A DNA stretch of 64,000 nt from Hydractinia symbiolongicarpus (taxonomy: Eukaryota; Cnidaria; Hydrozoa; Anthoathecata; Hydractiniidae), in the NCBI RefSeq assembly GCF_029227915.1, contig NC_079879.1:12400001-12464000 (forward strand). Reading direction: 5' to 3'. A program made the position numbers and the translations under genes. Shown piece after piece: positions 6,355 to 63,351 of this stretch (positions are counted from its first letter, which is position 1; each line of letters starts with the position of its first letter). The notes under the pieces are model-generated. The model made no database searches. It was not told where the DNA came from and worked only from the letters and a program-made list of their open reading frames with translations.

Positions 6355-6745
6355 TTTATTATAAAGTTTGAGTTATAATCAAGGTAAGTACTTATATCGA
6401 AAAAACATTAATATGTAACATATGTAGAAAACGTTTTCGTCATTTGCACTTACATTTGGCTGCACAATATGATTTTTGAAATGATTTCAGTGATCATAAA
6501 CGTTCCCACCGCCATTAGCTCGACTTTTGTGTAAGTCGAAAACCAACAACCGTTTTGTAGGCCTTTTAATAAGCAATGTCACGTGGAAAATAGAATGCAT
6601 CGCATTCAACATTGACAAGCCCTTATCCAAGGATAGGTTTTTCCCATCAATGTCCTAAACATATTAAAAGCAGGACGTGTTGTTATTTCTCTTTAGATCA
6701 TACATTTGTTTCCTTTTTAGACTATTTTTAACCAGAAGTTCAGAA

Positions 6746-8128
6746 ATGACAGCAAAGAAAACAAAAATTAGCGTGGAAGACCTTAAAGAATGGTATAAAA
6801 AAAGGCATCGCACCTTTATTGCCTTTACATGTCAAAATACTTGCTTGGGGATGGAATATTCTTTGACATTTGTAACTTTATGGCTATATCTTGAAGAAAC
6901 GCTAAAAGCCTCTCAATTAAAACTGTTCTATGGTCTAATTTCTGCAGTGTACGTAACGACACAGATAGCAGCATCAATTGTTATTGGTTATATTTTCGAT
7001 AAGTACAGAAATACATCAAGTATGTTTCTAATTGGGAATTGTTTCATTGTAATCGGAAATGCTATCTATGCTATACCATACTCGCCCTGGAATCTATTTT
7101 TTGGTAGACTAATTTCAGGGCTTGGAGGGTGTCATCGACCTATTATTAGTAGTGAATTAGCTAGATCATATTCTAATGATGAACTATCTTCAAAGTTTTC
7201 TATAATCGGGATGGCATTTGGTCTAGGATTTGTTCTTGGCCCTGGAATTAATTTTGTTTTTGTTAAAACAGATTTTTTTATTGGTTGGTTACATATCACT
7301 TACACAAATGCTCCTGCCTGTTGCTTGGCTGTCGTTTTTATGTTAAATCAAATTTTGGTAACGTGCTTAGTGAGTGACTTGTCCAAAGAATATAATTTTA
7401 AAGAGCAACAGACATTTGGTAAGGAGATTGCAGAACATGCATCAGTAAATAACTCAGATGATGAAAGTAATGCGCTGTTGCTATCAAACAAAAACAAAAA
7501 CGAAAGTTGTATTTCTGTATTCATACAACTTTTAAAGCACACAGATACTTTAATAGTTCTCTTGTCCTCATTTATGTTCATGTATTGCATGGTATCATTT
7601 GATCTGTGGCAACCATTGGCTAATGTTAAACTAATGCATTGGGGAATACTTGAAATCAACATCATTGTGTTTGCAAATGGAATAGCCTCAGTCGTTTTTC
7701 TACTATTTATAACGTATCGACCGTTAAATGATCATTCTATGGTATATATGAGTTGGATTTGTACTCTGTTTGTCACATTGATCCTAATTATGTATACCGT
7801 GCTAGCAGTATATAACTCAAACCTAATTCTAAACATTGTATGTTGGACATGTTACCCAATACTTTTCGCAATTCTTGTTATTTTTGATGATGTATTTCTT
7901 ATTGGTGCTATGGCAAAGATGACTAGTTCACGAGTGCAAACGTTAACAGAAAGTATAAGATTGGCATTTTCGCGGGCAGGAGCATTAACAGCGTTGTTGA
8001 CAGCTGCCATCTCTTTTACACAACTACATTATGTGTGTACCTGTCTAGCTGTTTTATCATATTTTGGATTTTTAGCATTAGTTTGGAGACGAAAGTCGCT
8101 GCAAAATCCTGTTGTTATCATTAAATAA
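6746..8128 (+). CDS. MFS transporter, MFSD8/CLN7-like (copy 1)
   Basis: A 460-residue single-exon polytopic membrane protein of the major facilitator superfamily. It has about 12 hydrophobic segments split by a polar loop near residues 225-255 containing an acidic NSDDESN run. Motif A after TM2 reads GYIFDKYRNTSS (G-x3-D-K-x-R). A TM5-like GFVLGPG resembles motif C, and the early WLYLEETL segment recalls MFSD8/CLN7-type lysosomal carriers. The substrate cannot be told from sequence. I chose the ATG at 6746 because MTAKKTK aligns with the start of the paralogue at 15420; the frame is also open upstream. A consensus acceptor (TTCCTTTTTAG) ends 25 bp before this ATG, so the 5' UTR is probably spliced. 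The paralogue lies 7.3 kb downstream on the same strand. Family call is good; the exact subfamily is inference. Confidence 0.78.
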   Translation: MTAKKTKISVEDLKEWYKKRHRTFIAFTCQNTCLGMEYSLTFVTLWLYLEETLKASQLKLFYGLISAVYVTTQIAASIVIGYIFDKYRNTSSMFLIGNCFIVIGNAIYAIPYSPWNLFFGRLISGLGGCHRPIISSELARSYSNDELSSKFSIIGMAFGLGFVLGPGINFVFVKTDFFIGWLHITYTNAPACCLAVVFMLNQILVTCLVSDLSKEYNFKEQQTFGKEIAEHASVNNSDDESNALLLSNKNKNESCISVFIQLLKHTDTLIVLLSSFMFMYCMVSFDLWQPLANVKLMHWGILEINIIVFANGIASVVFLLFITYRPLNDHSMVYMSWICTLFVTLILIMYTVLAVYNSNLILNIVCWTCYPILFAILVIFDDVFLIGAMAKMTSSRVQTLTESIRLAFSRAGALTALLTAAISFTQLHYVCTCLAVLSYFGFLALVWRRKSLQNPVVIIK

Positions 8129-10599: not shown

Positions 10600-11101
10600 A
10601 AATTTAATTATTACCCGGGTAAAAGGTCGTCATCAATCTTTTCAAAAATCGCGCAATGTGATTGGTTAGACTTACATCGTAGCGGGCAATATTCCACGGT
10701 ATTGTCCGCTAACATAGCAATCGTTTTAAAGTTTAAATATGGTAGCATTAAATGTAACTAAACACGGAAAAAAGTAACCAAAACGCGAAACAGAAGTAAA
10801 ACTTACTTTTATCTTTTAAAGAAGTCTATGTTGTAGCTACAATAAATGTTATGTTTGCACGATATTCGATCTTAAAAAAGTAATTATATTCGATTTTAAA
10901 AAAGTATATTTTGTGTTCGAATGCACGTTTCATGAGAATAGTTTCTTATAATGTTTTATTTTTGTTGTAAAATGCAGTACCCGGATAATAATCCATATAA
11001 TAAAAGTTTATTTCGGGCAATACCTTCGAATATTGACCTCTGTCGCGTATTGCCCTCACAAGCTCAGGCAATAATACATAGTTATTATAGGGTTAATGTT
11101 C
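10600..11101 (+). repeat. ~0.5 kb interspersed repeat, copy 1
   Basis: It begins near TTACCCGGGTAA, contains the inverted repeat GCGGGCAATATTCCACGG/TATTGYCCGC, a conserved CGCAATGTGATTGGTTAGA stretch, and ends near ACCCGGATAATAATCCATA...TATTATAGGGTTAAT. The same order of blocks is found inverted at 19015-19437. Many GGGCAATA motifs occur in both orientations, typical of a fold-back non-autonomous DNA transposon. No transposase is present, and its target duplication could not be fixed. Confidence 0.55.
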
Positions 11102-11175: not shown

Positions 11176-13830
11176 CTCTTGTAAGCAAAAACGAAATCGG
11201 GATATCGTTACTCCCTTTCATGGGCCTTTTATTTAAGAAAAATGCAATAGAAAAATAAAAATTGTCTGACAAAAAAAGAGATGTTAGGTATATAATAAAG
11301 CATATATTCCATGCTCGTTTGTCGAATATTAGATTTATCCGCTCTTGGTAAGGCAGAGTGGATAAATCTTGATATTCAACGAGCGGTCCTGAAATATCTG
11401 CTCAATATCTAAGGCTCTGAGAGAAATTGAAACTAAAAATTTATCTATTTGACATTTGGTCCAATAGATAAATATTAAGACTTAGTAGAATCACTACGAT
11501 GCAGCATAGCAAAAAAAGGGTATTAAAAAAAGGCAGGGGCAGTTAAACAGACTCGTTCAATTCACCAAGAAGTTTTAAACCTCGTGGAATACACATTCTC
11601 TGCATTTATTAATTTCCCAACAGCAAACAGAGTTGATCAATTATGTTCATCACTTTAATTTTTATTCGTGCAATAATTGCGTATTAAATTTGATTTGTTT
11701 ATACCTTCGTGTAACCAAAATAAAGAATCAATAGATTGAAACTACAAAGTACTGTTATGTACTGTGCATGGCGTGTGTATGTTGCACGCATGTTATATAT
11801 ACTGCTTTGGATTGTCAGGAAGTGAAAAAAACGCTGCATCTATTCAAGATACACATTACTAAAACTTTTGGAGACTGTCACAAAACTGTTCAAGTAGCTA
11901 CAATTAATCTTCCTTGAAACATATTTAATCGCTTTATAATTAATGATAAGATGGAGACGTAATTGCTTAGCTTCATGATCCCACAAAAGGGAAAAAATCA
12001 TTTATCACACAGTCAGTCGTGATAACAACAGGTTTTATTCATCTTTCATGTCCTGTGTTAGGCAATATAATTATACATAATTTTATTTTTTTAGTATCAA
12101 CTTAGTTAATATAGTTCGTCTTATTTTTTTACCAATGGATGGATGTAAGCCAGAGTATTTTTCGAGTATGAACAGACAACAAGGAAAATATTGTTGCAAC
12201 GAATACAGCTACAAGAAGTAAGGCATTATAGTAACTTTGTGCGAAAGTTTCTACAGAGTAAACTTGCTTAACTGTAAGAATCACAATATTTTTTTATTTA
12301 TTAATAATTTATGGTGTTTGCTGAACATTAACTGCGCCATTCTCCATTTTCTTTAAAAAAAATTTAGATTTAAGGTGCCTTAATAGGTATCGATAGTGCG
12401 CATGAAAGAAATGTGTCGGTTTTAATTATTATTATTTGTTCTATTTTTGACTTGACCTTAAAAGAATTTAAAAAACGTTCTACCTAAAAAGTGGCCACTT
12501 TAAAGAGTTTAGAAAACCCAGATTCGCTTAAGTTTAGTTTGAAAGCAAAAAGTAAATGGATTATTGCTAATAATTCCCTTTGTGACGTACTTTTAATTTC
12601 CCAAATTTCTGTTGCAAATCTTTGATATTTTAATAAAAGCGTCATCCGTACTTAATAATGACGGTGATAGATGGAATTATTTTAATCTGCTCTCGTGTTT
12701 ATGGTCAAAGCCAGTCACGTGGTTTTAAGTTTTGAAATCGTCACATGTCAATCAATAAGGTTTTCTTCGGTTGAGCAAAGCGAACTAGAAAATATTTAAA
12801 AAGAATGCCTCGTTTCACGTAATAAAGGCCTGAATTAACAAGGGAATCAAACATCGAATTTTGATTTTAATAAAGTATACAAGTAGACATTATTTAATCT
12901 CGCATCAAGGTTAATCATAAAATTATGTTACAACAACACTGAGTTAACAAGTAACATCTGTCACATCTCATTTAACGCTTCTTTAAACATTAATTCATTT
13001 AACATAAAAAAACTATTACTTGGGTTTACGATTTTGTTGTTTGCGGTTCTTATCACTTGCAGATGTTACATTTGTCATTAGTTAAAAACAGGAAAACTAT
13101 AATTAACACAAAAGGATCTATTTAAACTATTTTTCTTAGGGCAGCGACTTAAATTCGCAAAGCTACCCACAAGGACTTTGAAAGGTATGTTTTCACTGTA
13201 GAATTCTTCTTTTTAAAATTTTTTAAGCCAGCTGAAAGTGGAAAATAATTTAAATGGAACCCTTGCTGTGTGCTGCGTATTATAAATCTTAAGAAGTCCG
13301 CTTTTTGTGCAATACTGCGGTTGAACATCAATAAATACTTCGCAAATTTTAAGGTGTGGCTTTATTGTGAAAGTGGAGCTAAGAGTGTGCTGTTAAATAA
13401 AAGTGAATGGTCCTATCTGTTTCGGTATTCTAAAAATGTTTGTACCTTTAATTTTGCAACAAGTTCTGTCAAAAAACAGTAAACATAAATTTATATGTCA
13501 TCGATGTGTGGCGTACATATTAAAAACATCGTGACGCAACAATCAATTTTATTTCGTCTTTTCCGTAGTTTCACAAAAGTTTAATTTAAAAATTTTCTTA
13601 TACAAAATTCATGGTTAATTAACTTTTATTGTTCCTTCAAAGCAGTTTCTTTGTTACAAATAACTACAGTCAAAGTTGCAGACAATCACTTTGCGTTGTC
13701 TATTTCATTGAAAAAGTTTTAATTATTCGCGCCTTTTCAAGGAAATTAACAGAAACAAGTTTTTAATAATAGAAGGAGAACAATAAATTTTAGAAAGATT
13801 TTGTAAGTGATTTTTTGTTTGTTCTAAACA
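11176..13830. other. Gene-poor AT-rich region
   Basis: I see no supportable gene. A short inverted motif lies near 11320-11385 (CGTTTGTCGAATATTAGATTTATCC against GGATAAATCTTGATATTCAACGAGC, interrupted here by a short centre), suggesting a small foldback. The rest is AT-rich DNA with only chance frames. Confidence 0.35.
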
Positions 13831-14082
13831 TAAATTTGAAATTTAGTTTGTAAATTTTGTTTCATCTTCAACCATTTATATTTTTTATAACAACAATAAA
13901 GCTGGATGTGTTTATTTTTTTTGCTGAAATTTATTATGTTTTTAAATGAAAAAAAATTTTTTTTCAGTTAAAAACATAATAAATTTCAGCAAAAAAAATA
14001 AACACATCCAGCTTTATTGTTGTTATAAAAAATATAAATGGTTGAAGATGAAACAAAATTTACAAACTAAATTTCAAATTTA
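13831..14082. repeat. 252-bp near-perfect palindrome
   Basis: Two 115-bp arms (13831-13945 and 13968-14082) are exact reverse complements. They surround a core that is itself the palindrome TGAAAAAAAATTTTTTTTCA (13947-13966). Only the pair 13946/13967 mismatches. Identity stops sharply at both outer borders (13830 and 14083 do not pair). There is no flanking direct repeat that I can see and no resemblance to the Helitron-like or other repeats of the window. The DNA or RNA could fold into a ~115-bp hairpin. Confidence 0.9.
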
Positions 14083-14340
14083 GCTTTTTAAAAGCTATTT
14101 GCAAGAGAAGACTCTTTCTTAACCTTAATCAGGTCGTAAAAAGGCGCAAATTATTGTTAAATATATGAATTTTACGAGAAAGCGGCGTAACAATACTTCC
14201 GATAAACTATAGGATAAAAAATAAAAAATGTGTAGTTTACACTACTTCCGTGCCTATAATTGTATATTTCCAGGGATCATGACTACCGCAGAGTAATTTC
14301 ATAACAGGTGCGCGAAACAATTTTATAACAGGTGTGCGAA

Positions 14341-14620: not shown

Positions 14621-15419
14621 AAATATGCATAGTTTTCATGTGGCCTGTTTGAGGAGCTTAAGATCACTATAGTAACAAAAAAACCTTCCATGAATATTTT
14701 ATTTTATTAGAATTTACGCTTTGAATAAATAAATCAAAAACATTTGCCGGTTCGTGGTCCTATCACTTTTAATTAACAAAAAAGAAATCTGTGAGAAATA
14801 AAAAGATAAAGAACTTACCGGTAACAATTTTAATGCTTGTTCATTAATAAATTATAAATGGTTACCGTGTCTGTCTAACAAACATCGTAGTCAAGCACCT
14901 AAGAACACAGGTTCAGAAGTTCACAAAGATTTTTAGGTTTCACATTTTATTTGGAAATGTTACGTTAAAAAGAGTGTTTGCTTTGATAAAAAAAAATATT
15001 TTTTAATAATTCTTTTAAAAATTAGTCGGCACAAAATTGACAGTAAAATATATTGGCCAAGAGTAACTAAATTCTATACAGGTGGCTAACATCCGACCTA
15101 CGTTTTAACCGTAGTGTAATCTTTGTTTACTATCTTTTGTCATTATACTCAATCCCTGGCAACTTCTATTCTTCTTCTTGTTACTGTTTACTTGTGCACT
15201 TGTGAACTATAGAATGACAGTATAATTCTTGTTTATGTCGGCGTTCCTTAATTTAAAGTAGTTTGACAAAAGATTAGGAGTAATTTATAGCACTCGGTTT
15301 TTTCTCTTTTTTGAGACATTCGGGTGGAGCGTCTTAGCTAATAATAATTTTAATATTATATCTATATATTCATCATCCTGTCTACTTTAGAAAGAAACTA
15401 AATTCAGCAAAAATTGAAG

Positions 15420-16808
15420 ATGACTGCAGAAACATCAATAAGCAGTGGGAAGGATATCAAAAGATGGGAAAAGAAAAGACAACGTACATTCATTGCCTTT
15501 ATTTTTCAAGCTATTGGTCTGGGAATGGAATATTCATTGACATTCATTACCTTATGGTTATATCTTGAAGACACACTCAAAGCTTCTCATCTCAAACTAT
15601 TCTATAGTTTAATATCTGCAGCGTACCTGACGGCTCAAGTTGTATCATCAATTGTAATTGGCCAGATCGTGGATAAACATAGAAATGTATCTTCTATGTT
15701 TCTCTTTGGGAACACTTTGATTGTAATCGGAAATGTAATTTATACTATACCATACTCCCCGTGGAATTTATTTGCCGGTCGATTAATTTCAGGGGGAGGA
15801 GGATGTCTCCGGTCTATCATGACAAGCGAATTAGCCAGATCATACCCTGCTGATAAACTATCGTCAAAGTTTTCCATAATGGGGATGGCATTTGGACTTG
15901 GGTTTATTTTAGGTCCAGGTATCAATTTTGCTTTTCTTAAAGCAGATTTCTTCATTGGGCAATTGCATATTAGTTACACAAATGCCCCCGGTTGTTACTT
16001 GGCTATAATATTCATATTGATTCAAGTTCTAGCAACGTGTTTAGTAAGTGACCTATCGAAAGAATATGATTTAAAAGATCAAGAAACAATTGGTGAAAAG
16101 ATTGTACAATATGCAGCAGTAGCTAACTCAGACGATGAAAATAATGAATTCTTACCACCAAATGAACATCAAGACAGAAACAGAAGTGGTATTCGTGTAT
16201 TCAATCAACTTTTAAAGCATACAGATACGCTAATAATTCTTTTATTCTCCTTCATGTTCATGTATTGCATGGTTTCATTTGATCTCTGGCAACCATTGGC
16301 AGTTGTAAAACTGATGCATTGGGGAGTGCTTGAAATCAACATCATCATATTTGGATACGGTCTAGCTTCAGTAACTGTATTACTTATAATAGCATATCGA
16401 CCGTTAAGTGATCATTCGATTGTATATTTCAGTTGGGTTTGCACTTTATCCATAACATTGATTCAACTGATGTACATTGTGTTTACAGTGTACAACACTA
16501 ACTATATTCTAAATGTTGTGCTATGGACATTTTACGGAATACTTTTCGCAATCATTGTCGTTATGGAGGAAGTGTTTCTAATTGGTGTTATGGCAAAGAT
16601 GACTAGTTCTCGCGAGCAAGCCTTTACCGAAAGTATAAGATTGGCATTTTCGCGGTCAGGAGCATTAATAGCGTTATTGACAGCTGCCATCTCTTTCACA
16701 CAACTAGAGTATGTGTGTACCTGTCTAGCTGTTTTGTCATTTTTCGGATTTTTAGTTTTGGTGTGGAGACGAAAGCCGCTGCAAAATCCTTTTATTATCA
16801 TAACATAA
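15420..16808 (+). CDS. MFS transporter, MFSD8/CLN7-like (copy 2)
   Basis: A 462-residue single-exon paralogue of the transporter at 6746, with the same layout: a charged N-terminus, then about 12 membrane segments. Motif A is GQIVDKHRNVSS, a TM5 GFILGPG follows, and a hydrophilic central loop near residues 225-258 contains NSDDENN. The C-terminus (VWRRKPLQNP) is almost identical to copy 1 (VWRRKSLQNP). Differences concentrate in the central loop and N-terminus, as expected for a functional duplicate. The start is the ATG at 15420, in the same context as copy 1, with an acceptor-like TCTACTTTAG 29 bp upstream suggesting a spliced 5' leader. Both copies are free of stops and frameshifts, so both look active. 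Substrate is unknown. Confidence 0.8.
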   Translation: MTAETSISSGKDIKRWEKKRQRTFIAFIFQAIGLGMEYSLTFITLWLYLEDTLKASHLKLFYSLISAAYLTAQVVSSIVIGQIVDKHRNVSSMFLFGNTLIVIGNVIYTIPYSPWNLFAGRLISGGGGCLRSIMTSELARSYPADKLSSKFSIMGMAFGLGFILGPGINFAFLKADFFIGQLHISYTNAPGCYLAIIFILIQVLATCLVSDLSKEYDLKDQETIGEKIVQYAAVANSDDENNEFLPPNEHQDRNRSGIRVFNQLLKHTDTLIILLFSFMFMYCMVSFDLWQPLAVVKLMHWGVLEINIIIFGYGLASVTVLLIIAYRPLSDHSIVYFSWVCTLSITLIQLMYIVFTVYNTNYILNVVLWTFYGILFAIIVVMEEVFLIGVMAKMTSSREQAFTESIRLAFSRSGALIALLTAAISFTQLEYVCTCLAVLSFFGFLVLVWRRKPLQNPFIIIT

Positions 16809-19014: not shown

Positions 19015-19437
19015 TATTAACCCTATAATAACTGTTTATGAGGGCAATAACGGAGAATATTGACCGACGTTGAAGTATTGCCCGAGCCTGTGAGGGCACT
19101 ACGCGACAGAGGTCAATATTCGAAAGTATTGCCCGAAATAAACAGTTATTATATGGATTATTATCCGGGTACTGCATTTTACGAAAAAAAAAGTATATAA
19201 ACATAGCAAGTTTTTATTGTAGCTACAAATAAGAATTCTTTAAAAGATAAAAGGAAGTTCACTTTTGTTTTGAGTTTTAATTACATTTAATGCCACCATA
19301 TTTAATCTTTAAACACGGTTGCTATGGTAGCGGGCAATACCGTGGAATATTGCCCGCTATGACGTAAGATCTAACCAATCACATTGCGCGTTTTATGAAA
19401 ATACCGATGCCGCCCGTTTACCCGGGTAATAAAACTG
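19015..19437 (-). repeat. ~0.5 kb interspersed repeat, copy 2 (inverted)
   Basis: This is the reverse-complement counterpart of the repeat at 10600-11101. Read on the minus strand it runs from TTATTACCCGGGTAA through CGCAATGTGATTGGTTAGA and GCGGGCAATATTCCACGG to CCCGGATAATAATCCATATAA and ends near TATTATAGGGTTAAT. Part of it stays open in one frame in both copies (MQYPDNNPYN...), but that frame lies within fold-back sequence and I do not treat it as a gene. Confidence 0.55.
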
Positions 19438-51320: not shown

Positions 51321-51329
51321 GAAAAAACA
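51321..51329 (+). repeat. Left target-site duplication of the transposon
   Basis: GAAAAAACA, identical to 63343-63351 and abutting the inverted repeat. If the family uses 8 nt, the last A would belong to the element. Confidence 0.75.
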
Positions 51330-51459
51330 AACATACTCACCTAACAAAAATGGATATAATAGCGATAATGCAAAATGGATGTTATATCCATATGTACGGA
51401 GATATTAGAATGGATATAATATCCATTTCTAGAGAAAATGGATATAATATTGAATTTGA
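51330..51459 (+). repeat. Left terminal inverted repeat
   Basis: About 130 bp matching the right end in inverse orientation with few mismatches. Four copies of a TGGATATAAT-type motif occur, one of them the full palindrome ATGGATATAATATCCAT (51410-51426). These are candidate transposase-binding sites. Confidence 0.85.
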
Positions 51460-52513
51460 AACGACGAGAACTGGCAGCGTCCCAATAATAGCACATTGAG
51501 GTTTTAGTTATGGATACGAGGCTGTTTGAAGAGAGTTTCGGAACTGCGAAACAAACCTGGCCAACGAAGACGGTTCTCTTTTTTGCGTTTGCTTCTAGAT
51601 TAAAATAAGTTCAATTCAAGTGTGTTTTGTGATAATGTAGTGTTGATTTATGTATTTTTTGTTGGTTAGAAGTTTCTGCATAAGAAGCAACTAGATGTCC
51701 TGACTCTTAGTAGGTGTTGGTGTGGCAATTATTGTAAAGACAACTCCATCCCATATCTGCCCATTTTTTTTCTTTTGTACTTTTTTTAAACAGCAATATT
51801 AGCTACCTATAGCTAACTAGCTATGGGATACATTTACGGTGACTTCATTGGATAACAAGGCAGGAACATAGCTAGTAAGGGTCTAAAAATAATATAAATA
51901 AGCCCTCTTCTTCTTGGCTTAGCTAGCTAAAAAATATCACAGTCGGTGATATTCAGGGCTGATACAGGGAGTACTCAATTTTCCTTGTGTTCTTTCTTGT
52001 TCTTCTATTGCCTGTGAGGATGCACGCACATAAACACTCACAACTCATCTATCGATGCAGGATAGCTAATGATATGGCATGTAAAAACTAGCACCACACC
52101 ACTTCACTAATTACACTGAAAATATTTTTTAAATTGTTGTCTTTTGTCAGATCACGAAATTATAAGCAACCTTCTTTAAACCCAACAAGAAGTAAAAACT
52201 ATCAGAGGTTTATCTGTTATTATATAAATGGTTTAGGAAAAATAATAATAACAACAAAAACCTATAATTAGGGGATTGTTCCACTGTGGCCATTAGAACA
52301 AAAAAAAAATAAAGAAAAGAAAAATCTTATAGACTGCCTCAGCTTAATCACATAATTTTGCTAGTAGCCTAGTACAGTTAAAAAATGTATTTTGTGATAG
52401 TCCCTTGCTTTTCTTTCTTGCAGGGCTTTTGCGTCTTGATCCGTATTAGAAAAACGTGGTAAATTATCTTTCTGACTAAACTTTCTTTATAGTAGGTAAA
52501 AACTAAAATCGAG
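51460..52513 (+). other. 5' region of the transposase gene inside the transposon
   Basis: No coding frame is recognised. It should hold the promoter and 5' leader. An acceptor-like TTTCTTTATAG ends at 52492, 21 nt before the transposase ATG, so the leader is likely spliced. Confidence 0.4.
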
Positions 52514-55500
52514 ATGGGACCAAAGAAAAAAGCTGGTGGTCAGAAGCTGAGTGACTATTTGTCTGTACCTAGTCGTCACTTATTGTTAAAAATGCAAGAA
52601 GAGGAAGGCAGGGTTTTTAAAGATCCCAATATTCTCAAAGCAATCTACCAAGCAAAATTAGAAAGATCAATGGATAGCCGCACGTCTTCAACGTCAAATT
52701 CTGCCAGTTCTGATTCTTTTATTAGTAGTAATAGTACACCATGCTTTGCAAGTTCAAAATTAGGGTAAGAACATAAATTAGCATGTAAATGTTATGAAAT
52801 ATATTATTTTTGATTGAATTAATATATCTTCTATTGAACATTGTGCCTACAACTTTATCGGAGTACGAGTATAGTCCGGTTATAATAGCCTTTTTAGATT
52901 TATGTCATTTTATTTAAGTAAACAATCCTTATTAACATCAAGTATGGTCGCACTTCTAAATGAAAAGAAGAAGAAAAGTGTGTCATTAAAGAAAAAGATA
53001 GTTCCCTTTGTGATGTCAAGGAGTGGAACTTACAAATCTAAGAGACCAGTGAAGTTAGTAAATGAAAGGGATAAAAAAATTGAATTGACTGGTAAGTTGA
53101 AATTTGTGAGAAGTATTGAAAGATGTATTTATTTCTGCAATATGTTTAACCTGAAATTTACAATAAACTTTAGCTCCACAATTACAAATGGATGTCTGCG
53201 AAACACCCAGTATGCCTGAATATGTTATGGAAAACAGCGAAGAAGGTTGGGGTGTATTCATATATAAATGTGAATTCATTGAAGCTTTGGTGTCATTTCG
53301 AGTTTTAGTTTATATATGTTTTACTTTAGCTTTAAACAGACAACTGCAATTATCAGAGAAATTTTTGGGCGAAATTTCAACTAACCGGAAAGCTCCTATA
53401 ACCTGGGCTGAAAGAGCAAGTAGATTTCAAACATCTTTCATAGCAGAACGTGAGCAGTTGCACAAAGCATTTATGCTATCACAAAATCCAGGGCATAGTT
53501 CATGCACTAACTGTCATGAAGCTGAGTGTTCTGTGATCTGTATGGATTGTAAGCAGTACAAACACCTTTGTATTGTCTGTGATGAGATGCTACATTCACA
53601 TCAACCATTTCATGATCGCATTGGTTATGTTAATGGAGAAATGGTTGAGTTAAAACCAATACAGTCAATTGATTTCAATGGAAATTTAATCGAATTTGGT
53701 AAAGTGTATATATAGATATTATGTGCATCATTGTTGGAATAAAGCACCACTTCTGTGCATGCTAATATCTATACTTGCTATGACTGTACAAAATTAATGT
53801 TTTGATATTCAGAAAAGCATGTACCACTGGCAGTAAAGAGTTGTCCACAGTGTGGTTCTTCTATTTTCCATAAAAGAACTGACAACAGTCGTATTATATC
53901 TGTTATTTCATTTAAAGGTAACAATTGTTTTCTAATATTTTGTTAACATTGCATTTATTTGATAAACACATTTTTTGCAGAAACAATGTTAAAGTACATG
54001 TATATTAATTAGTGTCAATATCAATGTTTAGATGATTTGATAAACAACCCGTAATTCTTGATTTGATTTTACCTTAGGACGTTACGATTTGTTTGGTTTT
54101 TCCTGCATTTGTGTCCAATGCTCAGCTACCTTCGATCCATTGACAATAGAAAACATTGTTGAAAGCAATTATTGGCCAATGACTGTAAAACGCATTAACA
54201 CAATCATTGATATTGCTTTGTTGGAATTTTTAACCAAACTTCAACAAAGGATGCCAGGTTCATCAGAGCATAGTTTATTATCAACACTCAAAATGTTATC
54301 TACAGATAATGGTCGGGTGAGTTTAAGAGTCTTAAAATGAAACATATAAATTGTATGCAAAAAACTTTTGATTTAATTTTAAATTTCAGTCCTCAAGCAT
54401 AAACAACACTGCATTCTGTACATCTTGGAGAGAATACAAATTTTGCATGCATAAGATGGACATGCTGCAGCAGAAAAATTGGATGGAATGTCCTTCGTGT
54501 CATAATGATCAACATTCTTGTCATGTAGATGGAAACAACAAATTGTATCGCTACAAATCTGCTGGTAATAAAAGGTTGGTATTGTTATATTCATTTTTCC
54601 AAGTAAATTTTTATCAATTTGAATTCATTTACCTCAAGAAGTGTGTTGGAGTAGTTTAGATTTGCGTACCATATTTCAACTCTGGGCCATCGTTCTATCA
54701 AGATTTATTTATTTGTGATTCGGAATGTGTGGAAAGAACTGTAGACAATGTATATTCAAAGAAGTCCGGTTATGTAAAGGTGTGTGCTTAAATGAAAACA
54801 TTTTTTCCTTTTTTTCATTTTCTTGGAACTCTTTAATGTAGTTTTGAAATTTGTGGAAATTTTTCAAGATTTTTTTTTAATTAAAACACTAAATTTAAAA
54901 TTTAGACTAAGAATGACTGTGGTAACACTGTCTGGAGGGCTGCTAAGAACACTGCAAAGCATAATAACAAATTAGATGTTACTGGACTGAGTTATTGTGC
55001 ATGCAGACACTGTGTTGCTCAAAAGGGACTGAATATGACTCAGGGAGAAATATTTGCATACTCATATCACCTACAATCTTCCTTTATGACTTTAAATAAA
55101 GTAAAGTATTTTTGGTGTGATGTTGCTTGCAAATATTATCCATGGTTAGCAGATGTTGATGTGAACCTCAGCCGATCTATGACTCCAGCATTATCAGTTA
55201 TGCATGCAAAGGCACATTCATCATCATGTCAGGTACATTTAAATTTCTCAGGTTATGTTTATGAAAAATTTGTATCACAACGAGATATGTTTTTTATTTT
55301 ATTTTTTGTTTTATGTTCTTAAATTTATCCTAGTACAATAAAAATAACACATATTTATTGTTGTGTAATAACATTTTTATTATCAATTAATAGATACTCT
55401 GGGACGGTCGTATGAAGAGTGGCACAGGTTTGACAACTGGTGAGGAGGTGGAGCAGGTCAACAGTTATTTGTCTCGTTTAGGAAATTCAACAAAGCATCA

Positions 55501-57419
55501 GTTGCGTGAAGGTATGTTAATCTAGAATAAAAACAATTAACTGGAAACATTTACTATTATGAATATGGTAATGACCAGGAAGATTTCTTGTTTCATTCAT
55601 TGTAATGCTTGCCCTACCTTCGAGAGTCTCTCACCATAGTTCGAAATGATACAATTACCTGCATGGTATTGTCTTGGAATCGTCAGAAAGTCATCAAATT
55701 ATCATCCACATTAAAAAAGAAATTCTTTAAGGTAGGATTTAAAGGCCCTTGCAATGTTATACTGTTGTCATTACCCTTATATAATAATGTTATAAAGAAT
55801 AAATGCTAGCACAACATCCAGCATGTAAAAACTGGTAAATAAGGCAAATAAAGATGGAAAAATAATTGAACAGTTATTAATGGCTATTAAATTAATCCAG
55901 TTTTCTTTATTGTGTTAGACAAAAAAGTTGTTGGCTTTATCGAAAACACAGCTGGAAGATAAAATGATGGGAAAGGGGTGTGCGTTTCAGGAACAGAATA
56001 TATTAAAATGGAAAGAAGAACTTATTTTTTGGGCTAAAGGTTATATTGATATTTTTATTGCTTTCAAAATTACTTTTTCACGTGTTAATGTGTTTTTATA
56101 CTAGGCTATACATAAAGATTTTATTGATTGTCTCTCTTTTCAATTCATAGTGTTTTTATCAATTTACTATATGTTCAAATTTTGCAGAATCCCAGAATGA
56201 CAACAGGAAAATCTTCACTGAAATGGAAGAGTTGGTCGTGTTATCTTGTTATCTAGGGACAAGTGATATTTTATCTAAGGAACTAACAGAATTGTTAATT
56301 GGCACACCTTATCTGCGAAACACAAATCAACAAAATTTCGAAAGAGCAACGTTTCTCAGATCTAAAGTATCATCTGAACCTACCTTGGACGATGTTGTTC
56401 CTATAAAAAGGAAGTTTCTGCAGATCTTCCAAGATGAAACCGAAAAAGCATATTCTGGCATAGCCCAAAGTAACATGCAGATGTCAAAGTTAGCAGGTTC
56501 TTATTTTCTTCTTTATATGTATGGATGATAAATATCTATTAAACTCCGAGTTTTATATTTGTGGTCAAAAATTTTGGAACAATAAAGTTTTATAATACGT
56601 GTGGAACTTTACTTTCATAGACTCCTGTAAAATGAGAAAAAGAATTCGACTTAAAACGTCTGAAGAGAAAAAAAAACTTAGCAAATTTATCAGGAAATAT
56701 AATCAAGTTGCTGATGAAGTGGGTGTGGCTACAATTAATGTAGATGTTGGAAGAGACAACTTTGACTTTCCGTGGCTAGAAGAGGAAGGTCATGAAGGTA
56801 CTGCAAATAAAATGTTACTTTGTGTTTGCCTTTGTACTCTCTGTGACACATTAAATCATTGAATGTATGGTGTGTGCATTTTTTATTATGTTTATTGCCT
56901 CATATTATTTTTTTTTTTATGTTTCAGGATTATCGATGAACTTTAAACGTTCTGTTGTCATTCTTTTTGAACTGATAAAACGATGCGAAGAAGAAATCGA
57001 AATTTTGCAAAGAGAAATGACAAACTATCTGTCGTATTACAAAAACGTGATTGTTAAACTTGAAGAATCTACGAAAGTGATTCAACAGACTCCAAATGTT
57101 AGTCATTTACCTGCACAGCATAACTGATCAAACATTTAATTTAAGAGATTACACTCTCTTTTTTGTGTAAATTAGTAAGTCGTGAAATTTTACGTTTTAG
57201 GTGATATCCCAATCGAAAATTCTCTTCATAAAAAAAGGTGTACGATTTGCAAAAAAACAATTATTGAATGGTTACCAACATTTTTTGGACATAATGAAGA
57301 CGAATACCGACAGTACCTATAGTGTAGAAGAATTGACTGATGAAGATGATTCCGACAATGACCTTGATAGTGATGATGATGATAGTGATGATTCGATTTC
57401 AGAAAACGAATACGAGTAA
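52514..57419 (+). CDS. KDZ/Zisupton-type transposase, 15 exons, apparently intact
   Basis: Inferred exons: 52514-52764, 52898-53091, 53174-53698, 53813-53917, 54078-54316, 54390-54578, 54660-54779, 54906-55232, 55394-55511, 55625-55731, 55919-56039, 56188-56496, 56621-56797, 56928-57097, 57201-57419. All have GT/AG borders and compatible phases, and they sum to 3171 nt (1056 aa). Order of parts: basic, Ser-rich N-terminus; a CxC-type zinc cluster near residues 259-300 (CTNCH, CMDCKQ, CIVCDEMLH, QPFHD); CPQCG; GRYDLFGFSCICVQC and NYWPMT; CPSCH followed by DGNNKLYRYK. The RNase H-like core follows: DVTG with CRHC (Asp about 565), WCDVACKYY (Asp about 613), HAKAHSSSCQ, then GTGLTTGEEVEQVNSYLS (Glu about 667/670). 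The C-terminus is coiled-coil-like with an acidic DDDDSDD tail. Exon 3 contains a possible 84-nt in-frame intron (53246-53329). Exon 2 could begin at 52919 instead, and the exon 10 acceptor is the least certain. AATAAA lies at 57429. Confidence 0.87.
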
Positions 57420-58146
57420 TTAGTTGTAAATAAATAACTTATTTGTTTTTGGATTGCCGTTTTTACACCTTTCAGCAATTTCCTAATTATTTTACTCTAT
57501 TATCCCATCAGTTTAATCAAGATATCGATTAAATATTTGCATTCTTCGAATTCTACCATGGGGTTCTTTTGCTACGTAAAACATGACTTCTTAATTTCGC
57601 ATGAGTTTTTAACTCCAAGGAGATTTTAGTATCTTTCTGTGTTTATATATAATTGTATTTTTAACAAAAAGAGTAAAATATGTAAACAGTATATTATTCA
57701 AACATTCACGAAATCGAAGTATAACTTCTTTCTAATTTCACAGTACCCTCAAATAATTATTTTTTATTGTCTTTGTCTTTCTCCACACGAATAGCACCTG
57801 AGCTATACAATGCGGTTATTCTAATATCACAGTTTCCTCAAATCATTATTTTTTACTGTATTTGTCTTCTATACTACAAAATACTATAAAATATACAGAG
57901 GACTGTCGATGTAATCAACCGCCGATATAGTGGAAGTTTCGATGTAGGTCCATTCCCCTTGAATTTTACCCTGAAGAAACTGTTATATACCGTTCTTTGT
58001 AACGAACTCCCGATATAGTGAACTCTTGATTTAAAGAAGTAAGTTATTCGTTCCCCACACTCAAAAAAATCTCGAAATAAGGAACTCAAGGCACTAAAGG
58101 TAATAGAACTTCGGCAATATTTTCAACATGGGTATCAAAAAAACAA
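57420..58146 (+). other. 3' flank of the transposase gene
   Basis: AATAAA at 57429-57434 is the likely polyadenylation signal. Beyond it is AT-rich DNA. The segment near 57890-58085 has repeated CCGATATAGTG motifs but no supportable gene. Confidence 0.5.
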
Positions 58147-59830
58147 GACGTGGATACTAGCGAAGAATTGGATTTATGATTTGACGTACGTGTAAAAGTT
58201 CAACTCGACCTCCATTTTCGGGGTATTTGTGTCTCCATCAAAAAATTCAAACAAGACGTGGATACTAGCGAAGAATTGAATTTATGATTTGACGTACGTG
58301 TACGAGTTCAACTCGACCTCCATTTTCGGGGTATTTGTGTCTCCATCAAAAAATTCAAACAAGACGTGGATACTAGCGAAGAATTGAATTTCTGATTTGA
58401 CGTACGTGTACGAGTTCAACTCGACCTTCCATTTTCGGGGTATTTGTGTCTCTATCAAAAAATTCAAACAAGACGTGGATACTAGCGAAGAATTGGATTT
58501 ATGATTTGACGTACGTGTACGAGTTCAACTCGTCCTTCCATTTTCGGAGTATTTGTGTCTGAATCCAAATATTCTAACAAGACGTGGATATTAGCGAAGA
58601 ATTGAATTTCTGATTTGACGTACGTGTACGAGTTCAACTCGTCCTCCCATTTTCGGAGTATTTGTGTCTGAATCCAAATATTCAAACAAGACGTGGATAC
58701 TAGCGAAGAATTGAATTTCTGATTTGACGTACGTGTACGAGTTCAACTCGACCTTCCATTTTCGGGGTATTTGTGTCTCTATCAAAAAATTCAAATAAGA
58801 CGTGAATACCATCGAAGAATTGGATTTATAATTTGACGTACGTGTACGAGTTCAACTCGACCTACCATTTTCGGAGTATTTGTGTCTAAATCCAAATATT
58901 CTAACAAGACGTGGATACTAGCGAAGAATTGAATTTCTGATTTGACGTACGTGTACGAGTTCAACTCGACCTTCCATTTTCGGGGTATTTGTGTCTCTAT
59001 CAAAAAATTCAAACAAGACGTGGATACCATCGAAGAATTGGATTTATAATTTGACGTACGTGTACGAGTTCAACTCGACCTTCCATTTTCGGAGTATTTG
59101 TGTCTGAATCCAAAAATTAACCCACGACGTGGATACAAGCGAAGAATTGAATTTCTGATTTGACGTACGTGTACGAGTTCAACTCGACCTTCCATTTTCG
59201 GGGTATTTGTGTCTCTATCAAAAAATTCAAACAAGACGTGGATGCAGGCGAAGAATTGAATTTCTGATTTGACGTCCGTGTACAAGTTCAACTCAACCTT
59301 CCATTTTTGGGGTATTTGTGTCTCCATCAAAAAATTCAAACAAGACGTGGATACTAGCGAAGAATTGAATTTCTGATTTTACGTACGTGTACGAGTTCAA
59401 CTCGACCTTCCATTTTCGGGGTATTTGTGTCTCTATCAAAAAATTCAAACAAGACGTGGATACTAGCGAAGAATTGGATTTATGATTTGACGTACGTGTA
59501 CGAGTTCAACTTGTCCTCCCATTTTCGGAGTATTTGTGTCTGAATCCAAATATTCTAACAAGACGTGGATACTAGCGAAGAATGGAATTTCTGATTTGAC
59601 GTACGTGTACGAGTTCAACTCGACCTTCCATTTTCGGGGTATTTGTGTCTCTATCAAAAAATTCAATCAAAACGTGGATACTAGCGAAGAATTGGATTTT
59701 TGATTTGACGTACGTGTACGAGTTCAACTCGACCTTCCATTTTCGGGGTATTTGTGTCTCTATCAAAAAATTCAATCAAAACGTGGATACCATCGAAGAA
59801 TTGGATTTATGATTTGACGTACGCGGGATC
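58147..59830. repeat. Minisatellite, about 16 units of 108-109 bp
   Basis: Units run from AAGACGTGGATACTAGCGAA through TTTGACGTACGTGTACGAG, TTCAACTCGACCTTCCATTT and CGGGGTATTTGTGTCTC to the next unit. Two variants (TCTATCAAAAAATTCAA and TGAATCCAAATATTC at the joint) alternate irregularly, suggesting growth by blocks of more than one unit. Each unit contains the inverted pair CGAGTT-C-AACTCG and a TGACGTACGT segment. The array lies wholly inside the transposon. The last unit breaks off at about 59821 into unrelated sequence. Confidence 0.92.
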
Positions 59831-60322
59831 TTGCCGAACCATCTTAACCGTACGAGTACTGGGCATTCCATTTTCGGAGAATTTATTTTCTATCAGTGAA
59901 ATTTAAGTTCACCGGAAATTTTATAACTTTTCCTTATGTGTGAAGTTTGAATCTGTGAAACAAACTCCATCCCCCAGCAGAGGAGCCAACAGCGAAACTT
60001 TGGTCCCAGGTAGTTCCCCCACCCCGCGCCTGAGAAACGCTAGATAGCCAATCAACTTTAAGGTATTGTTTTGAATGAGCTCTATGAAGAAAACAGTTCC
60101 ACTCTCTCTTTTTGATTCCACGTGAAGAAACTTGATTGCTGTGAATCTGTACCATCTTTTTAGCAGAGGTAGGGATTTTTGGGCAGAAATGTTTTTTAAG
60201 CGTTGTATGATAGTATTTTTACTTTCTTTTAGTTCATTCTTAATTTTCTTGTGTGAGCTGCTAGTTTTTCTGAAGCCATACTTGATTTGTTTTCTCATTA
60301 GTGTTTTGTTTTATAGAAAAAA
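59831..60322 (+). other. 5' region of the zinc-ribbon gene
   Basis: Locally less AT-rich (CCCCACCCCGCGCC at 60017). This segment precedes the second transposon gene and probably holds its promoter and leader. An acceptor-like GTTTTATAG ends at 60316. The minus-strand frame across it is not supported as a gene. Confidence 0.35.
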
Positions 60323-60865
60323 ATGTCAACATCTTTAACGTCAGTATTGTCAATGACAACGTCAACAATATCAGCTATGTTAGCGACAGAACCTACGTCA
60401 ACGACATCAGCTTCGTCAGCGACATCAGCTTCGTCAGCGACATCAGCTTCGTCAATAAAGTCAATTGCGTCAGCAAAGTCAGCTTCGTCTGCAAAATATG
60501 CAGTTAGTGATGGCAAAACAGATCCCAAAAAGCCATTTGGAAGCAAGGTAGGTTACTTAATATGATTTCACAAGGAGAACAAGAAATTTTTGTTGACTTG
60601 CCCTATTTCTCATATAAACATGCATTTTAATTTTTAGATTTGCCCCAATTGTTCTACCTTGAATGCATCTGCTTGTGGTCACTGCCGACAATGTGGTGAA
60701 AAATTTGAAAAGAAAAGTAGGAAGCGTGCATTAAACATTCCTAAAAACACGACCCGGAACGACCAAGATAACCCTGCCCTAATATTAATCCTGAACTCCG
60801 GCATAACTTTCAAGGTTCAGCCCCACTGCGGTATAATTCTTATTCCTTTTTTAAGTGACTCATGA
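60323..60865 (+). CDS. Transposon-borne small zinc-ribbon protein, two exons
   Basis: Exon 1 (60323-60547) and exon 2 (60638-60865, stop TGA) join in phase 0 across a GTAGGT...TTTTTAG intron, giving about 150 residues. The N-terminal ~55 residues are almost only Ser, Thr and Ala, built on an 18-bp repeat (TSASSA units). A DPKKPFGSK segment follows. Exon 2 starts with a zinc-ribbon-like cluster, CPNC-X7-CGHCRQCG, followed by a basic KKSRKR stretch that may be a nuclear signal. After this the C-terminus has no recognised domain. It lies inside the KDZ-type transposon on the same strand as the transposase, so a DNA-binding or accessory role is possible but unproven. It could also be a captured host exon pair. 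Confidence 0.6.
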
Positions 60866-63212
60866 AATAAAAACATCGCGCCACAAGTAAAAGAGCGCAT
60901 TACATGAGCAAGCAAAAATTCGAAATCAAGCTGGGCTATGCTTATCCAAACAATACAAGCAGACTTAGAATAATGCTTACGTTATGCTTATTGCAGAAAC
61001 AAATAAACTTAAACGCTCCCTCGTATAAGATGAAAATGGTCTTGTTTTTAGTGTTTACAAAACAACCACAAAACGTAAAACGAGGTGCAGGCAATATAGT
61101 AATTCAGTCTTAAGACTTTTAATATATTAATTGGGATAAGAGCACTTTAGGAACTTTAAGTTTAATACATTTGAAAACAAGAAATTTTAGGAAAGATTAA
61201 CTTTTGACATAACATACCACAACAAATAGTAAACAACAAATAGCATTGTTACAAAGAATATATTTATATATACAATCTTCATATTAAAATATTTACAATT
61301 GAATTTGGTGTGTCACTAAAACATAATTTTCCTACAGCACCTAATTCTAATACAGCTCCTGTAAATTTCTTTGGCTTGAGTTTATTGCACTATTAAAAAG
61401 TCCAAAGCAATTTTCAAATTGAAAAAAATTGAAACAGTCTGTCAAATAAAATTTTAAAATAAAATAAGATTCAACCTTAAAATTACAAAAATTTTGGAAA
61501 GCTTACCTGGAACCAAACTGCGTAAATCAGGGCTATCAATAAGGGGAGAGCAAAGGCTCACTCAATTCTGAGAAATGAAACACTAGTTTTGCCATTAATT
61601 CCCCCCCCCAAAAAAAATTCTGGCTGAGCAATATGAATTTATCTCACATGGAAATCAATGTTCTCTTTCTTATTATTTTCAGTAAAAAAGAACCAAAATA
61701 AATAAAAAAAGACTGTGATAAAATATGCGTTTATAATCTTATTCTATTTATTCAGATTGCTCGACCAGTTTAAATTATTGTAACCTTGGGGAACGATGTA
61801 TTTTTCTGGTGTTATTTTCTTATTGATAAGCCTGGTAAATATATTTACAGCAGCACTAAAATATTTTGTATGTCCCGGACTATTGTGAAAACAATTACTT
61901 AATTTTGTAAACATACAGACATACACACCCTTTTTATTTTCCCACTTTGCAAAACAAACATATGTTTTGCGCAAAAAGAGTAAAAACCACAGAAATAATA
62001 ACTGAAAAAAAAATGAACTTGAAATGGAGCCTAGCTAAGTACAGTTAGCGCTCACAATAAAAACAGAGAATAAAATATGACAGACTCACTTTTGTAATTA
62101 GAAATAATACCAACCAAACATATTTTGAGGGTGGTCAAAACAAAAAACATAAGGGGCCATAACAAACGAGGTTTGTTACGCCTAGGAGATTTCGTCTATT
62201 AACATCCCCACACACCCAGCCACTCCCTTAATGGATACTTTTATTCCTAACCCCAGAATCCACCCAAAAATTAACTATATACACATTGAACTTCTGATCG
62301 ACAGAACAAACCCTTGTAACAAGCTTGCAGAGAGCGGAATTTGATACTGGAAAATGAACCTGTCATGGATGACATTTGCCATTGTTCAAATAACCAAGAA
62401 ACTTTATCCCATACCTTCTGCCTTTGTGGTTTAACTGCACAGCAAAAACACAAAGAAAAAAAGCCATGACCATGACTCATGCTTAAACAGATTTTCACCA
62501 TGAAATAAATATCTTTAGCAAATTTATCTCAACCCTGACCACTACACCTTTTGCTGAAAAAACCCGCTAAGCGTCACAAACCTATTTTGTTGCCTGCCCC
62601 TAGGCAGATTTCTTTGTTTACATTTTCAGTGGTCCTCTAACATATGTGTGCTCTATGATGCTTTTGTAAGAGAAATCTGCTAGAAATTTTTTATTTTAGC
62701 AAGATCTAGCTAGCATATTATTGCATGCCACACGAGGAGATGTCAGTTGCTGAAACTAAACAAAGAAAACTGTCTGTGTTTAGCTAGAAATTAGACTATA
62801 AGTAACACAAAAATCGACATATAGTTATATAAGATTGTGCTATAAAGCATCGTCTGGTATTCTTCTCTGAAGAGTTATCAAACACCTATCAGTGATATCC
62901 GTTATTAGCTTATAGCTGGCTAGCTAGCTAACAACATACCACCATCACAACTTTTGCAACCCAGACAGCCATTCCTTTTTTCACTTTCTTCTTCTCTCTG
63001 ACCTTTTAAATTTAAGCAGACTGGCTATAGCTAAACTAGATCTTGGTGGATAATTTCACAATACTTCTTTTTATGGTCCTTAAGTCGCCAGCTGCGAAGG
63101 AAGGGCAGTATAGGATTCGTTCAAATCAGAAAGTTGTGGCTTCCACAGCTCAGTACACCATCTTTCTTTTTTGCAATAAACGGATTGATTAGTTGATGAA
63201 AACATAACAAAG
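60866..63212. other. Right part of the transposon, no gene recognised
   Basis: Only short frames occur on either strand. TAGCTAGC simple sequence occurs near 62700 and 62920, and a run of C/A lies at 61602-61618. I looked for a SUMO-protease-like domain, known from fish Zisupton, and did not recognise one. Confidence 0.4.
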
Positions 63213-63342
63213 CTGATATCAGCTATTATATCCATTTTCGCTAGAAATTGATATTATATTCATTTCATGAAGCCGTGCATATGGATATAATATCCATTTT
63301 GCATTATCGCTATTATATCCATTTTTCTTAGGTGACTATGTT
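63213..63342 (-). repeat. Right terminal inverted repeat
   Basis: Reverse complement of the left end, with the same series of TGGATATAAT motifs. Differences from the left end are scattered single bases plus a short length difference near 63270-63275. Confidence 0.85.
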
Positions 63343-63351
63343 GAAAAAACA
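63343..63351 (+). repeat. Right target-site duplication of the transposon
   Basis: GAAAAAACA, equal to 51321-51329, directly outside the inverted repeat. Confidence 0.75.

Follow-up and report, generated by a model that had tools for sequence, protein, structure and literature searches.

Structure of the element

We analysed a 64-kb stretch of the genome of the hydroid Hydractinia symbiolongicarpus (contig NC_079879.1; hereafter the window), in which a KDZ element of 12,013 bp occupies positions 51330-63342. It consists of a multi-exon transposase gene enclosed by terminal inverted repeats (TIRs) and is flanked by a direct repeat (Table 1).

Table 1. Features of the KDZ element and its flanks (window positions)
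Feature	Position	Strand	Remarks
Left direct repeat (target site duplication) GAAAAAACA	51321..51329	.	Read directly, rechecked
Left TIR, 120 nt	51330..51449	+	Starts AACATA; repeat finder and alignment
KDZ transposase gene	52514..57419	+	16 coding exons, 1008 aa; spliced translation equals P0001
Transposase exons 1-8	52514-52764, 52919-53091, 53174-53245, 53330-53698, 53813-53917, 54078-54316, 54390-54574, 54680-54779	+	
Transposase exons 9-16	54906-55232, 55394-55511, 55640-55731, 55919-56039, 56188-56496, 56621-56797, 56928-57097, 57201-57419	+	
Predicted catalytic KDZ core, exons 7-10	54387..55510	+	D450 (HVDGN), D570 (WCDVACK), E624/E625 (TGEEVEQ), P0001 numbering
Exon 8 acceptor for the NCBI product	54678..54679	+	Reads tttcAA, AA instead of AG in the window
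Minisatellite, 109 bp, 15.5 copies	58141..59823	.	Inside the element, downstream of the transposase gene
Possible second gene, 150 aa	60323..60865	+	Two exons (60323-60547, 60638-60865), canonical intron
Right TIR, 119 nt	63224..63342	-	Repeat finder and alignment
Right direct repeat GAAAAAACA	63343..63351	.	Read directly, rechecked

A first-pass annotation of this DNA had proposed matched TIRs of ~130 bp with a 9-bp direct repeat exactly outside them, and both features are present. The repeat finder returned two paired segments (51330-51399/63273-63342, 94%; 51409-51449/63224-63264, 93%), which a single gapped alignment unites into TIRs of 120 and 119 nt, with 107 of 120 columns identical (89.2%) and one gap. 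Their outermost 70 nt are identical at 66 positions, and the local alignment score is 93; scores from 500 dinucleotide shuffles averaged 16.9 and peaked at 27. The terminal 24-mer, allowing up to 3 mismatches, occurs at only two places in the window, the two element ends, with a mean of 0.00 in 100 shuffles. Within the left TIR lie TGGATATAATA repeats and a single palindrome, ATGGATATAATATCCAT.

The direct repeat is identical on both sides and adjoins both TIRs without a gap, a fixed-position 9-bp match for which base composition gives a chance of 1.1e-5. Provided that the two ends mirror each other at AACATA..TATGTT, the duplication as read comes to exactly 9 bp; one of 8 bp would require an unpaired terminal base at one element end. 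This single copy is compatible with a 9-bp rule or perhaps with an 8-bp duplication extended by one chance base. When a paralogous empty site was sought within the window, 650 nt of right flank gave no other match and 500 nt of left flank matched only a diverged repeat at ~44554 and 46378. A pattern scan of viral contigs gave 118 matches, none of which was confirmed.

The transposase gene and its product

The spliced 16-exon product is letter-for-letter identical to the NCBI protein LOC130644823 isoform X2 (P0001) of H. symbiolongicarpus, in agreement with the animal host that had been assumed for the element. Judging from its name, we take this entry to be a RefSeq prediction. The gene is thus already catalogued by NCBI, where it is labelled "uncharacterized". 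Our initial model, drawn from splice signals, had 15 exons (2853 nt; 950 aa plus stop) and reached 1013 aa after addition of an acidic last exon, an inclusion supported by relatives that carry comparable acidic C-terminal tails; its differences from P0001 are confined to splice joints. The earlier description of 15 exons with lengths summing to a multiple of three holds for this 15-exon version, whereas the model that matches NCBI has 16 coding exons, and the 1056-aa product announced with it was not reproduced. No stop or frameshift interrupts the 16 exons, and 14 of the 15 introns are GT-AG.

The product matches the Pfam KDZ family (PF18758) well above the curated cut-off of 26.6 bits (1013-aa model, E=7.8e-23, 81.7 bits; P0001, 93.9 bits) and, N-terminal to the KDZ core, the cysteine-cluster domain CxC3 (E=3.7e-16, 59.4 bits against a cut-off of 26.6). 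This profile search bears out the KDZ identity previously read from the motifs DVTG...CRHC, WCDVACK, HAKAHSSSCQ and GLTTGEEVEQ, all of which are found in the protein. The candidate catalytic residues D450, D570 and E624/E625 are invariant in all 12 rows of alignment A1, their role being read from the sequence. Foldseek comparison of the whole predicted model with the PDB gave 214 matches at E<=10 and none at E<=0.001, with no transposase or integrase among the best 50 of the 214; a PDB sequence search gave 8 weak matches, the best of them (E 0.0062) to CONSTANS zinc fingers.

The possible second gene would encode Ser/Thr/Ala-rich repeats followed by a zinc-ribbon-like CxxC..CxxC end. A homologue search with residues 60-150 returned 2 candidates, neither at E<=0.001, and all Pfam matches lay below cut-off; this two-exon open reading frame may not be a gene at all.

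Relatives in cnidarians and fish

A protein search with the 1013-aa model returned 14 proteins, with LOC130644823 isoform X2 as the best and others from Acropora, Dendronephthya, Clytia and fish. An alignment-based search returned three rows: P0001, a EukProt transcript product (P0015), and the product of a second Hydractinia gene, LOC130648956 (P0016), whose predicted structure (mean predicted local distance difference test score, pLDDT, 44.3) was not used. At 90% identity P0001 belongs to a cluster of 5 member sequences, all on one contig. Like the window protein, the proteins of Clytia (P0005), Acropora (P0002 and P0004), Dendronephthya (P0003) and Hydractinia (P0016), together with P0015, contain KDZ (6/6); CxC3 is also present in P0005, P0002, P0004, P0003 and P0015, but not in the short P0016. 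Identity between the cnidarian relatives and the window protein is 30-36% in alignment A2 and 31-43% by local BLASTP (cnidarian rows). P0015 differs from the window protein in having an additional C-terminal extension. Against the profile for the N-terminal region of herpesvirus tegument protein, this extension scores weakly (E 0.002, short of the Pfam cut-off), and we guess that it could be a cysteine protease-like domain.

Phylogenetic analysis covered 13 rows, with P0012, P0013, P0014 and fungal or named Zisupton references left aside and P0015 counted as cnidarian by guess. A fully supported branch splits the cnidarian from the fish rows, the window row falling on the cnidarian side, and a recent fish-to-hydroid transfer is therefore not suggested. 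The window row is long-branched, and its position among the cnidarians is tentative. The element extends a family known in corals and hydroids and does not represent a novel type. The statement in the first-pass annotation that complete, possibly active KDZ copies are rarely described outside fish and fungi was too strong, given the public Clytia, Acropora and Dendronephthya proteins and the elements in print from the nematode Pristionchus (PMC9297572) and the algae Ectocarpus and Chlamydomonas (PMC12477816).

Discussion

Here, we propose that a full-length KDZ transposon of the autonomous, cut-and-paste DNA type has inserted into the part of the H. symbiolongicarpus genome that the window covers, a reading that we hold with high confidence. 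This is based on the observed ends, duplication and domains, the conserved D/D/E residues, and an open gene that is canonical at 14 of 15 introns. In the mechanism that we envisage, a spliced nuclear transposase would bind the 120-nt ends, with its cysteine-cluster domains and the TGGATATAATA repeats as the probable points of contact. A putative DD..E RNase-H-like active site (D450, D570, E624/625) would excise the 12-kb element, and, after insertion at a staggered cut, host repair would make the 9-bp (perhaps 8-bp) duplication.

One junction stands out, namely the exon-8 acceptor at the end of intron 7, where AA stands in place of AG, a change that may weaken the present copy. It opens a real, if secondary, possibility: that the KDZ insertion is genuine but the copy dead, the acceptor change blocking normal transposase so that the element moves only with enzyme from another copy. 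In keeping with this, P0002-P0005 align to the NCBI-type exon-7/8 junction within one residue, without the 8 extra residues that the alternative GT-AG intron at 54579-54659 would leave in the joint, and the 90%-identity cluster is restricted to one contig. A dead copy sits less easily with 16 exons free of stops and frameshifts, with the frame being kept by the alternative intron despite its longer joint, and with NCBI listing exactly the P0001 product, which may stem from an AG allele or reflect actual use of this junction. The NCBI protein may have been derived from DNA that differs from the window at this point, be it a second allele or a different assembly; otherwise the junction is a non-canonical one.

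Present activity, which the first-pass annotation held possible for an apparently intact element, is conjectural, given the single-contig cluster and the AA acceptor. We think it unlikely that a KDZ family cutting its target with a 9-bp stagger is still moving in Hydractinia; if true, it would do so in an animal whose germline and stem cells are accessible, and ours could be the first KDZ element of a cnidarian for which the two ends and the duplication have been delimited. We consider it more improbable still that the gene has been domesticated, that is, that it is a KDZ-derived gene useful to the host and under selection, on either side of which the old transposon ends persist. A long open gene in the NCBI listing and the single-contig cluster would suit such a history, but both ends and the exact duplication have been kept, and a close orthologue was not among the proteins returned, the nearest of which have the modest identities given above. 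Unrelated inverted repeats brought around a KDZ gene by chance or by assembly artefact can be dismissed with near certainty, for although the A-rich 9-mer recurs fairly often in the window (five + strand occurrences and one on the - strand, both flanking copies counted), the TIR score far exceeds the shuffle maximum and the end pattern is confined to the two ends.

How does the Hydractinia transposon compare with known KDZ systems? In Cryptococcus neoformans, KDZ1, KDZ2 and KDZ3 have been shown to be mobile; they measure ~9-11 kb, with TIRs of 139-241 bp and a duplication of 8 (4-8) bp (PMC12810828). The Hydractinia element resembles them in size, in its TIRs, and in combining a KDZ core with a cysteine-cluster domain. 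It differs in carrying CxC3 rather than CxC1, in its non-fungal host and in its 9-bp duplication; movement was seen in the fungus, while the present case is made from sequence. Zisupton and Dileera make 8-bp duplications, and Kyakuja, of the same KDZ superfamily, makes 7-bp duplications and has no TIRs (PMC12730594). With TIRs and a 9-bp duplication, the Hydractinia element shows neither mark of the Kyakuja lineage, and TIRs are a feature that it shares with the Zisupton lineage. Zisupton (Boehne et al. 2012), known to us through the descriptions in PMC12730594 and PMC9297572, shares the multi-exon KDZ transposase and TIRs; its duplication is 8 bp against 9 bp in our single copy, the fish element being compared by description only. 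The Zisupton families of Pristionchus pacificus likewise share an animal host, the KDZ domain and TIRs, with 18 or 31 exons, but differ in their dozens of copies and in that the study detected no duplication of the target site (PMC9297572). A giant KDZ element has been described in Ectocarpus, in a paper that also cites an active 31.7-kb KDZ element in Chlamydomonas (PMC12477816). An earlier Repbase view held Zisupton to be without a DDE transposase (PMC3706591).

The words Zisupton and KDZ are absent from the main text, as excerpted, of two Hydractinia genome papers (PMC11067881, PMC10411563). A partial literature search on cnidarians and Zisupton returned no paper on a KDZ element by title or abstract start, from which we do not claim absence from print.

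For a cnidarian KDZ element, the exact ends, the duplication and a gene model are now available. With the ends defined, non-autonomous relatives can be sought among unclassified repeats, which make up 48% of the Hydractinia assembly (PMC10411563), and mobility can be tested in a laboratory hydroid. In addition, identifying an "uncharacterized" NCBI gene as a transposase bears on gene counts and on the interpretation of the KDZ gene at the sex locus. That gene, HyS0067.3, is a "likely KDZ transposase" in the H. symbiolongicarpus sex-determining region, specific to male gonozooids, with expression of 5.67 fragments per kilobase per million (FPKM) in male gonozooids and 0.03 in females (PMC9926710, Table 1). 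The likely sex chromosome is chromosome 1; scaffold numbers follow length, and the largest scaffold measures 42,572,105 bp (PMC10411563). The gene in the window is probably not HyS0067.3: the P0001 gene lies on a sequence of 35,016,489 bp as against the 42,572,105 bp of chromosome 1, assuming the same assembly. This assumption is supported by P0016, whose contig of 33,314,500 bp matches the scaffold N50 reported for that assembly.

Other features of the window

Upstream of the element, two similar single-open-reading-frame genes for major-facilitator transporters (6668-8125 and 15402-16805) lie 8.7 kb apart on the same strand. Diverged repeat units recur across 19700-48430 at spacings of ~4.3 kb and ~7.8 kb, in up to 5 copies (among the best 20 of 31 families), a pattern that would fit repeated tandem duplication of one segment. 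At 13826-14087, two 131-nt arms with 98% complementarity form a palindrome that has no spacer. One transporter gene is enclosed by inverted arms of 60-120 nt (10608-11078 and 19071-19432), 87-92% complementary and ~8-8.7 kb apart, which are possibly the ends of another large element.
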